Shown: positions 1,124 through 45,965 of the stretch, in pieces
Numbering within the stretch: position 1 is the first letter of the stretch
How the letters are laid out: every line of letters starts with the position of its first letter
From: an uncultured Porphyromonadaceae bacterium
GTDB lineage: Bacteria; Bacteroidota; Bacteroidia; Bacteroidales; Muribaculaceae
Assembly (NCBI GenBank): GCA_947175215.1
Contig: CAMWLR010000004.1
Location: 1 to 63,904, forward strand
DNA: 63,904 nucleotides
Direction of reading: 5' to 3'
Notes under the pieces: generated by a model
Told to the model about the DNA's origin: nothing
Database searches by the model: none
What the model saw: only the letters and a program-made list of their open reading frames with translations
Program-made: the position numbers and the translations under genes

Positions 1124-2512
1124 TCATCGGCCTCCGCCGAGGGCTTGGTAGAGGCTGATGATGGTCTGGTCGCGTTCGAGCTCGGTCGAGAGTGCCGACA
1201 GCTGTGCCGACAGCAGCGATGACTGGGCGTTGAGTACCTCGAGATAGGTGGTCTTGCCGTCATAAGCGAGCAGCAGGTTGGTCATCTCGACGGCCTGTGA
1301 GAGGGCCTCGGTCTGACTGGCCAGCAGCTCTTGCTTGCGCGAGAGGTTGCCGTAGGCGGTGAGGTAGTCGTTGACCTCGGCGGTTGCGTTGAGCAGGGCG
1401 TACTTAAAGTTGTTCATCGCCTGCTCTTGCTGTGCCTTGGCCCCCTTGAGACCGGCGATATTGGCGCCGCGCGAGAAGAGGGGCGCGGTGAGCTGGGCGG
1501 CCAACTGCACAAACCATTTGCCGGGGTTGGTGATCATCGACCCGACGAGGTTGGTAAACCCGCCGTTAGAGCTGATGGTCAGCGAGGGGTAGAAGGCGGC
1601 ACGGGCCGAGTTGGTGGCATAGTAGGCGGCGGCAAGCTGTTGCTCGGCCACGCGGACATCGGGACGCATGGCCAGCTCGCGCATAGGTATACCGTCGCGG
1701 AGCACCTGCGGGTTGCCCAAACGGGCATCGGGCGAGATAGTCCAGGTCTGGGGCTCTACGTTGAGCAGCAGCGACATCGAGTTGTTGGCCTTGTCGAGGG
1801 CTGTCTCGAGGTCGGTGATCGAGGCCAGGATCTGATAATACTGGGCCTCGCTCTGCACGACGGCGGCCTCGGTCACACGCCCGGCCTCCTTAAAGTCGCG
1901 CATGGTCTGCACACTCTGTTTCCAGAGCTCGGCGGTCTCGCGCGAGAGGTTGAGCTGTGACTCGAGCACGGCGATGGTGTAGTAGCATGAGGCCACACCG
2001 CCTATAATCTGAGATCTGACGGCCTGCTCGTAATCTTTCTGCAGGTCGAGGGCGGCCTCGGCGGCGCGCTTGCGGTTGAGGATCTTGCCGAAGATGTCTA
2101 CCTCCCAGCTGATGGCCATTGGCAACTGATAGGTGCGTGTCCATGATGCGCCGTCGACGTGATATTTAGACAGCGAGCCGTTGAGGTTGAGGGCCACGGC
2201 GGGGAGATAGCTCAGGCGGGCGCCCAGAACGTTGGCCTTGGCCACCTCGACGTTGAGGCGTGCGTTGTCGAGATTGACATTGTTGTCGAGAGCGCGCTGT
2301 ATCATGTCGGCCAGCACGGGGTCAGTGAAGACCGCCTGCCAGGGGAGATTGCCAAAAGCGGCCGAGTCAGGCTCGCTCTTGACCACCTCGGCATACTCCT
2401 TGGTGACGGGGTCATCCTGGGGCATCTCAAATTTCTTGTAGATATGGCAGGAGGTGAGCCCGGCCACGGCTAAACCGAAGGCTGCGGCTATGAATATTTT
2501 TCTGAAGTTCAT
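1124..2512 (-). CDS. OprM/NodT-type outer-membrane efflux channel lipoprotein
   Basis: Trimeric TolC-like channel that would carry substrates from the RND pump across the outer membrane. A type II signal peptide ends in LTSC (Cys22), so it should be lipid-anchored. Two outer-membrane efflux repeats with long coiled-coil helices follow (462 residues, normal for the NodT family), with the conserved MRPDV motif near the middle. It lies 18 bases after the pump gene and is last of the three efflux genes before lpxA. No specificity can be read from the sequence. Confidence 0.92.
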   Translation of the reverse strand: MNFRKIFIAAAFGLAVAGLTSCHIYKKFEMPQDDPVTKEYAEVVKSEPDSAAFGNLPWQAVFTDPVLADMIQRALDNNVNLDNARLNVEVAKANVLGARLSYLPAVALNLNGSLSKYHVDGASWTRTYQLPMAISWEVDIFGKILNRKRAAEAALDLQKDYEQAVRSQIIGGVASCYYTIAVLESQLNLSRETAELWKQSVQTMRDFKEAGRVTEAAVVQSEAQYYQILASITDLETALDKANNSMSLLLNVEPQTWTISPDARLGNPQVLRDGIPMRELAMRPDVRVAEQQLAAAYYATNSARAAFYPSLTISSNGGFTNLVGSMITNPGKWFVQLAAQLTAPLFSRGANIAGLKGAKAQQEQAMNNFKYALLNATAEVNDYLTAYGNLSRKQELLASQTEALSQAVEMTNLLLAYDGKTTYLEVLNAQSSLLSAQLSALSTELERDQTIISLYQALGGGR

Positions 2513-20845: not shown

Positions 20846-20883
20846 CGGGACACGCCACAAGATTTAATTTTGGGCGTGTCCCG
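20846..20883 (+). terminator. Terminator of the leucine-rich-repeat gene
   Basis: A perfect 11-base stem (20846-20856 with 20873-20883) has a 16-base loop and is followed by ATTATTTTG. The loop and right arm also contain the -33 element of the metK promoter. Confidence 0.8.
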
Positions 20884-20900
20884 ATTATTTTGTAACTTTG
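20868..20900 (+). promoter_or_regulatory. metK promoter
   Basis: TTTTG at 20868-20872, a 20-base spacer and TAACTTTG at 20893-20900 form a near-perfect Bacteroidetes promoter. Transcription should begin near 20906, giving a 5' leader of about 140 bases before metK. Confidence 0.8.
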
Positions 20901-20989
20901 CACGCTCTTGCGGTAAATAGCAATCCCGCAGAGACGTTCCTTTACATCTTGTCAGGCATTACGGTGTCCGTCGAGGCCACCGCAATCAC

Positions 20990-21046
20990 CGCCAATGTGG
21001 AAAAATTTGATTGCTTGCAACCACTCAAAAAAATGCTAAAAACTCT
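20990..21046 (+). promoter_or_regulatory. Candidate SAM-II-family riboswitch in the metK leader
   Basis: The end of the leader can form a short stem GTGG (20997-21000) with CCAC (21021-21024). The loop carries ATTTGATTGCTTGCA and the tail carries GCTAAAAA (21035-21042), directly before the ATG. The known SAM-II core has the same order: stem, a loop with AUUU and UUGCA, closing stem, an A-rich stretch and GCUAAAAA next to the start codon. Its position before the SAM synthetase gene fits feedback control of translation. The stem is short and the pseudoknot pairing is only partial by eye, so this stays a candidate. Confidence 0.5.
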
Positions 21047-22366
21047 ATGAATTATCTTTTTACATCCGAGTCAGTCTCGGAGGGGCATCCGGACAAAGTC
21101 GCCGACCAGATCTCAGACGCCGTGCTCGATCAGTTTCTTGCACGCGACCCTAAGTCTAAAGTCGCCTGCGAGACGCTGGTGACCACAGGCCAGGTAATCA
21201 TCGCCGGTGAGGTCAAATCAGAGGCGTATATCGACCTTGACTCAACCGCCCGCAATGTCATCAGGGAGATCGGTTATGACCGCTCAGACCTCAAATTTGA
21301 CGCCGAATCGTGCGGTATCCTCTCTGCCCTGCATGAGCAGAGCCCCGACATCAACCAGGGTGTCGAGCGCCAGGACCCCGAGCAGCAGGGCGCCGGCGAC
21401 CAGGGGATGATGTTTGGCTATGCCACTGAGGAGACCCCGCTATATATCCCCCTGACCACAGCCCTTAGCCATGCACTGCTCAAAGAGCTGTCAAAGATCC
21501 GCCGCGAAGCGAGCGCATTTACATACACCGACGACGCCGGCAACACCCGCTGCTATCTGCGCCCCGACTCCAAGAGCCAGGTGACGGTCGAGTATGACGA
21601 TGACCGCAACCCCCTCAAGGTCCACACCGTCGTCATCTCTACCCAGCATGACGAATTTATACTCCCCGGCGAGGGCCGTACCAAAGAGCAGGCCGAGCGT
21701 GAGATGATCGACACCATCACCCGCGACGTGCGCGAGGTGCTGATTCCCCGCACCATCGCCGCCCTCCCCGCCGGTCTGCGCCACTTCCTCGACACTGACT
21801 TCATCCTGCACGTCAACCCCACCGGCAAATTTGTCATCGGCGGCCCCCACGGAGACACCGGTCTGACCGGACGCAAGATCATCGTCGACACATACGGCGG
21901 ACACGGAGCGCACGGCGGCGGCGCATTCTCTGGCAAAGACCCCTCGAAAGTAGACCGATCGGCCGCCTACGCCGCCCGCCATATCGCCAAAAACCTGGTG
22001 GCCGCAGGCGTATGCAGCGAGGCCCTGGTACAGGTAGCCTACGCCATCGGCGTGGCCCACCCCGTCAGCCTCTATGTCAATACCCGCGGGACAGCCAAAG
22101 TACCTTACACCGATGCCGAGATTTCGGCCAAAGTCAACGAAATATTTGACATGCGCCCCGCCGCCATCGAGCGACGCCTCAAACTGCGCGCCCCCATCTA
22201 CCTCGAGACCGCCACATACGGCCACGTAGGCCGCACACCGCGCACCGTCACCAAGACTTTCCGCGACTCAATGGGTGGCACCTTCACCCGCGACGTCGAA
22301 CTCTTCACCTGGGAGAAACTCGACTACGTCACCCCCATCCGCCAAGCCTTCAACCTCCCCTGCTGA
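21047..22366 (+). CDS. metK: S-adenosylmethionine synthetase
   Basis: Makes S-adenosylmethionine from methionine and ATP in the cytosol. Hallmarks are [16 protein letters not shown] at the N-terminus, [12 protein letters not shown] (methionine and ATP site) and [16 protein letters not shown] (phosphate site). I use the ATG at 21047: the protein then begins [17 protein letters not shown] as in the family, 439 residues. An in-frame ATG at 21011 would put the candidate riboswitch inside the coding region. The gene stands alone between two terminators. Confidence 0.97.
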
Positions 22367-45826: not shown

Positions 45827-45857
45827 TTTGCAGTGAGAAAAAAAAGTAGTAACTTTG
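45827..45857 (+). promoter_or_regulatory. SRP RNA promoter
   Basis: TTTG at 45827-45830, a 19-base spacer and TAACTTTG at 45850-45857, an exact Bacteroidetes promoter. The RNA would begin at about 45862. Confidence 0.8.
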
Positions 45858-45861
45858 CAGC

Positions 45862-45958
45862 GGGTAAGTCCTACACGACCAGCTCCCCCCGAACTCCGTC
45901 AGGTCTTGATCGAAGCAGCGGTAGGGGGTCGTAGCGGTGCGATGTAGTCAGCTTACCC
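45862..45958 (+). ncRNA. ffs: Signal recognition particle RNA, small bacterial type (4.5S)
   Basis: About 97 bases folding into one long rod: GGGTAAG at the 5' end pairs with CTTACCC at the 3' end, CTACA with TGTAG, and GACC..CCCCC with GGGGGTC. The Ffh-binding domain has GTCAGGTC on one side and GAAGCAGCGGTA on the other, the SRP hallmark. A T-run follows at 45959-45965. The RNA joins Ffh and targets membrane proteins. The apical loop differs from the usual GGAA tetraloop. Confidence 0.9.
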
Positions 45959-45965
45959 TTTTTTT

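Follow-up and report, generated by a model that had tools for sequence, protein, structure and literature searches.

The S-adenosylmethionine synthetase gene metK in the window, by which we mean the whole 63,904-nucleotide stretch of DNA analysed, is preceded by an aptamer that is a member of the SAM-II (long loop) family RF01726. The start codon follows the aptamer closely, and at the 5' end of the mRNA stands a hairpin, conserved and co-varying within the genus, with a loop complementary to the aptamer loop L1. We read the leader as a SAM-II repressor of metK in which pairing of the hairpin loop with L1 would compete with the SAM-bound fold, and we give this reading a probability of about 0.4. 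The aptamer is of a known type; the architecture of the leader in the window's genus is new.

Identification of the aptamer

A covariance-model search matched RF01726 at 20991-21049 on the forward strand (as are all features below) with 57.8 bits and E = 1.7e-8 over the window. This is well above the gathering cut-off of 44 bits, and the match covers positions 1-60 of the 60 in the model, i.e. its full length. The initial annotation had placed a SAM-II-like element directly before metK at 20990-21046, which agrees to within three bases. It had also pointed to long-loop SAM-II variants in Bacteroidetes; the RF00521 (SAM_alpha) model gave 14.5 bits on the element, below its cut-off of 36, so the long-loop variety is the right kind of SAM-II. 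The genome itself gave six RF01726 matches at E up to 10, this being the only one above cut-off, and no second aptamer in the window was shown by the Rfam search. The window also holds a Bacteroidales small SRP RNA (RF04183) at 45855-45962, with 98.8 bits.

Within the genus, 13 of 14 genomes had an RF01726 match above cut-off; in the family 186 of 198 did, and in the order 195 of 295. In the 14th genome of the genus (G166), which has no RF01726 match above cut-off, the metK match spans residues 202-437 only. With a score well above cut-off and an aptamer found in most sampled Bacteroidales, it is extremely improbable that the element is a chance look-alike and no riboswitch. Long-loop SAM-II RNAs of Bacteroidetes and marine samples are listed by Weinberg et al. 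2010 (PMC2864571), so this kind of aptamer was already known. Within the open-licence literature searched, no title dealt with the RF01726 platform in these bacteria.

The stem, loop, A-rich stretch and 3' strand before the ATG that the initial annotation described can all be found in the sequence. P1 is made of GTGG (20997-21000) and CCAC (21021-21024), the form seen throughout the window's genus. Loop L1 (21005-21018; the loop sequence ATTTGATTGCTTGCA occupies 21005-21019) comprises ATTT, GATTGC and TTGC. GATTGC is the 5' segment of P2b and TTGC (21015-21018) is the 5' strand of P2a, and both are unchanged in all 13 genus leaders. The A-rich stretch is followed by GCTAAAAA at 21035-21042 and then by the metK ATG at 21047. 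GCTAA (21035-21039) is placed by the Rfam alignment and the comparison of leaders as the 3' strand of the P2a pseudoknot with an unpaired U, for which we take the pairing scheme to be that of the SAM-II structure. The conserved ATTTG, TTGCAA and AAATGCTAA (P2a) strands are all present. The short spacer to the start codon (21040-21046) carries no 3' strand for P2b.

The open reading frame at 21047-22366 encodes 439 amino acids from the ATG and has 69-91% identity with its relatives in the genus. We presume it to be metK from its conserved start motif, which puts the element within the 5' UTR of a gene belonging to the SAM cycle. Upstream there is a Bacteroidetes-type promoter with a −7 box TAACTTTG at 20893-20900 and, 20 nt ahead of it, TTTG at 20869-20872, which we take to be the −33 box from the consensus for such promoters. 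By eye, the other 11 hairpin-bearing leaders of the genus also have a TAnnTTTG box directly ahead of the hairpin. After the upstream gene an inverted repeat, CGGGACACGCC/GGCGTGTCCCG at 20846-20891, is followed by T-rich sequence; the loop of this repeat contains the −33 box of metK, which makes terminator and promoter overlap. A mini-ORF overlapping the metK start (ATG CTA AAA ACT CTA TGA, 21033-21050) was rejected because its frame is not kept across the genus, the distance from GCTAA to the ATG being 7 nt in four leaders and 8 nt in nine. Its ATG (21033) belongs to the aptamer strand that is conserved.

Stem and pseudoknot pairing across leaders

We compared 233 leaders, their loci taken mostly best score first, not randomly, and in the order mostly one per genus. 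metK was placed within 170 nt in 207 of these and found for none of the other 26; in seven of the 207 (L013, L032, L144, L153, L222, L224 and L233) there is no loop at the chosen place. A later parser read 232 of the 233, missing L165.

The parser chose P1 as the best-pairing of four registers, and all four base pairs form in 232/232 leaders. The types are GTGG/CCAC (220), GAGG/CCTC (6), ATGG/CCAT (4) and GCGG/CCGC (2), so that 12 leaders have changed pairs, and P1 co-varies as would be expected if the stem proposed by the initial annotation is real. The loop begins with ATTTG in 231/232 leaders, and AAAT precedes GCTAA in 221/232. P2a shows no covariation because the parser itself demanded TTGC and GCTAA.

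In classic SAM-II the 3' tail supplies one strand of P2b. P2b is not among the pairs in the Rfam structure line for the RF01726 match, and its support depends on the leader. Among order leaders with spacer A, L1 pairs with the tail right after GCUAA in 119/156 possible pairs (for example AUUG/CAAU and ACUG/CAGU), a level reached by 72 of 5000 permutations. With spacer C, the kind in the window, there is no covariation, with 53/96 pairs in the order (52.9 expected) and 39/80 in the family (38.9 expected). Within the window's genus the seven distinct tails give 8/28 possible pairs; the first P2b pair is formed in 0/7, and none is complete.

The leader of the window's genus is compact

The metK ATG lies 7-8 nt after GCTAA in all 13 genus leaders. 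Outside the genus, where metK was found, it lies mostly some 50-170 nt after GCTAA, 170 nt being the limit of the search. Judged from this comparison, the downstream platform with an anti-loop segment, the putative ancestral state, is gone in the window's genus. Given that the ATG lies only 7-8 nt past the 3' strand of the pseudoknot, the aptamer, once folded, should by itself mask the place where the ribosome lands. Bacteroidetes make little use of Shine-Dalgarno pairing.

Eleven compact leaders were candidates outside the genus. L144, L153, L222 and L233 are false entries, which leaves seven (L128, L141, L162, L168, L172, L173 and L177) in four genera (g7, g13, g18 and g21), with the ATG 1-18 nt after GCTAA. 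None of the seven has a full P2b, a substitute for it or the 5' hairpin. Compaction is therefore neither confined to the window's genus nor dependent on the hairpin. In L128, L162 and L177 the ATG is just 1-2 nt past GCTAA, within the usual 3' end of the aptamer. In L172 and L173 the aptamer stands close behind the end of a different reading frame and, by eye, no TAnnTTTG box separates the two; transcription of metK may therefore start there at a promoter further upstream.

A 5' hairpin with a loop complementary to L1

A hairpin stands directly behind the promoter in 12 of the 13 genus leaders. In the window it occupies 20905-20933, with stem CTCT-T-GCGG / CCGC-AGAG and loop TAAATAGCAATC. The initial annotation had expected at least one more stem in the 5' part of the leader, at about 20955-20985. 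The 5' part does contain a stem, at 20905-20933; the one at the expected place (CGGTG 20962-20966 / CACCG 20978-20982) can be drawn, and is by eye absent from the other genus leaders.

The hairpin stems carry compensatory changes and have 4-13 contiguous base pairs. Counting runs up to 8 bp over the eight distinct hairpins, arms paired with their own partner give a mean run of 6.75 bp versus 3.07 bp when swapped, a result reached by 4 of 20000 permutations. Stem positions 5-7 fail in 2-3 of the 12 hairpins, and the stems of L037-L039 are interrupted after 4 bp. The probability of the closing pair is at least 0.5 in 9 of 11 leaders assessed (0.12 in L037 and 0.36 in L046); the fold ensemble of L048 was begun at a later promoter-like match, which cut the hairpin off. 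The whole leader of the window folds no better than its shuffles (z = −0.77).

The loop has a constant part, AUAGCA-R-UC, and is otherwise variable. Its AGCARUC can pair with GAUUGCU of the aptamer loop in all 12 leaders; in the window these are AGCAATC at 20919-20925 and the docking site GATTGCT at 21009-21015, with a duplex energy of −7.4 kcal/mol. From the hairpin loop to the aptamer loop downstream the distance is 45-101 nt. Since L1 is invariant in the genus, the loop pairing offers no co-varying position other than one A/G facing U.

How far does the fit exceed chance? Complementarity alone, compared with shuffled upstream regions, reached p 0.02 in 0/13 genus leaders (p 0.05-0.25). Compared with shuffled loops for the six loops, it gave p 0.05-0.15 when G-U pairs were allowed; with Watson-Crick pairs only, two of the loops gave p 0.02 and the other four p 0.04-0.62. 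A scan for a hairpin with a loop fitting its own L1, its parameters fixed after the hairpin had been noticed, found 12/13 in the genus versus 0.2 expected among leaders that are mutually related. Elsewhere it found 3/129 in the family (2.1 expected) and 6/90 in the order (3.9 expected), in sum 9/219 versus about 6. Among 29 named records with an identical 5' half of the aptamer, AGCARTC is found upstream in 11/12 compact leaders and 0/17 with long platforms; the 12 compact records probably represent, for the most part, species already among our 13 genus leaders.

These weak p values for complementarity alone leave some room for a plain compact SAM-II switch, in which the hairpin would serve mRNA stability, standing as it does at the 5' end, or as a binding site for a small RNA or protein, and would match L1 by chance. 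L041 is the one compact genus leader that lacks the hairpin, and compact leaders from other genera do without it as well. We nevertheless consider this improbable, since the invariant part of the hairpin loop is the complement of L1 (with one A/G) plus the preceding AU while the rest varies, and since hairpin and compact layout coincide among identical aptamers. In L041 a tRNA-Cys gene (1585-1658, reverse strand) is followed by a terminator-like hairpin with a T run directly ahead of P1; the named record L244 probably comes from this species too.

Further copies of these elements were sought. The window hairpin's 18-mer, a probe that would miss hairpins with other stems, occurs once in its own genome, with one further place at three mismatches; a reversed control pattern likewise gave one place, and a second copy was rejected. 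Occurrence in other genera was likewise rejected, with three weak regex matches in 194 non-genus leaders and the chance-level result of the scan above. The minimum free energy fold of the window's leader showed a second complement, GCAATCA plus CCGC at 20982-20992, with L1 and the 5' strand of P1 as possible partners. In the other 12 genus leaders there is no second GCARTC within 120 nt, so the second complement is confined to the window's species.

Downstream platforms in relatives

In 87 leaders of the order, with 20 loop types, the platform segment fits its own loop better than others, with mean scores of 15.4 versus 13.1, a difference reached by 0 of 3000 permutations that reassign loop types and leave the relatedness of the platforms in place. 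A strong anti-loop match is present in 50 of the 87, and in 34 of these 50 it begins 12-25 nt after GCUAA. It often covers the P2a bases and the U's of L1, so the segment would compete with the SAM-bound fold. Within the family, with three loop types, there is no signal for a downstream anti-loop segment (1518/3000 permutations).

Some platforms of the family carry a different element. TTTCCAC or TTTTCCAC, complementary to the P1 5' strand, occurs in 28/109 (0.68 expected from shuffles), and in 20 of those 28 the other possible partner, TGGAAA, lies within 25 nt ahead of the ATG. TTTCCAC and TGGAAA were picked after being noticed, and the TGGAAA count is without a shuffle control. It is plausible that together they act as an anti-sequestor in part of the family. 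In L010, L011, L018, L025, L033 and others TTTTCCAC, in slightly differing forms, has two alternative partners, the 5' strand of P1 and GGAAA just ahead of the ATG, which could be a two-state design in part of the family. By eye, the platforms of the family members L084, L113, L163 and L166 resemble intrinsic terminators, or hairpins that carry a T run; if they are, the same aptamer would exert transcriptional control there.

The 17 long-platform leaders that share the window's loop bear most closely on the hairpin. A downstream complement of the loop is found in 12, and five have neither kind. In 10/17 CAAGC lies 10-12 nt after GCTAA, its complement being on the P2a side of the loop. L252 and L253 have AGCAATC, identical to the hairpin loop segment of the genus, at +19/+20, and keep the CAAT tail of P2b. 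The downstream complements in 12/17 suggest that the genus may have moved the anti-loop strand from the 3' side into the 5' hairpin.

Competition or substitution

On the reading we prefer, P1 and the P2 pseudoknot would close at high SAM and cover the ribosome landing site, so that translation of metK would be blocked and the gene repressed. In the genus the hairpin at the mRNA 5' end would take the place of the platform, its AGCARUC pairing with GAUUGCU of the aptamer loop. At low SAM this pairing would oppose the SAM-bound fold and keep metK on. Pairing between the two loops is likely; the odds between competition and substitution for P2b are nearly even.

Under substitution, the hairpin loop would supply the lost strand of P2b, pairing with L1 within the SAM-bound fold, stacking on P2a and strengthening the switch. 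We regard this as possible, though less than probable. The genus lacks the 3' strand of P2b (see above), and P2b tails in the order are often AGCARU or ACARU, close to the AGCARUC of the hairpin loop. The layout is like an H-type pseudoknot, with 5-7 nt before the docking strand and 0-2 nt after it. The pairing begins right past the U's of L1 and overlaps P2a by one base only, so the SAM site need not be disturbed; both features also count against competition. On the other side, L252 and L253 hold AGCAATC together with a P2b tail, a setting where AGCAATC would compete, and compact leaders of other genera have neither a full P2b nor a substitute. The chance-level P2b pairing with spacer C means that the loss of P2b may mean little. 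In nested-fold ensembles the probability of the inner pair of P1 is below 0.25 in 10/13 genus leaders, which speaks against substitution yet is compatible with either reading. Competition is favored by the downstream segment that changes with L1 in order leaders, and the AGCAATC downstream in L252 and L253 leads us to rank it slightly above substitution.

Comparison with known SAM-II systems

The element resembles the long-loop SAM-II RNAs of Bacteroidetes given by Weinberg et al. 2010 (PMC2864571) in its aptamer core, P1, long loop and GCUAA strand. Its position before metK is the same as in the RF01726 relatives fetched. It differs from them in having no 3' P2b strand and no downstream platform, with the ATG 7-8 nt after GCUAA and an added 5' hairpin complementary to L1. 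The order of elements and the H-type pseudoknot near the start are shared with classic SAM-II/SAM_alpha (RF00521, PDB 2QWY; PMC5352136), for which control at the ribosome site, as proposed for the window element, is described; there P2b with L1 forms a triplex region. Unlike SAM_alpha, whose model stays below cut-off on the element, the window's 3' tail offers no partner for P2b. In the tandem SAM-II/SAM-V RNA of Ca. Pelagibacter (PMC11508383) a downstream linker is reported to block SAM-II binding. There the response of the SAM-II domain thus reportedly depends on sequence outside the aptamer, as it may in the window; the window differs in having an upstream hairpin and no second Rfam aptamer.

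Implications

The comparison suggests that, within a single order, one metK switch has been rebuilt while its core stayed constant. Much of the order would have a downstream anti-loop segment; part of the family would have TTTTCCAC as an anti-P1 segment, with TGGAAA ahead of the start as a second possible partner; and the window's genus would have no platform and a loop-pairing 5' hairpin instead. Should the hairpin supply P2b, the second pseudoknot helix would have been moved, its 3' tail strand replaced by the loop of a 5' hairpin, giving a switch docked loop to loop that controls the start codon without a separate expression platform. The turnover of platforms, and the control of translation by a riboswitch in bacteria where Shine-Dalgarno pairing plays little part, become directly testable here in short RNAs.
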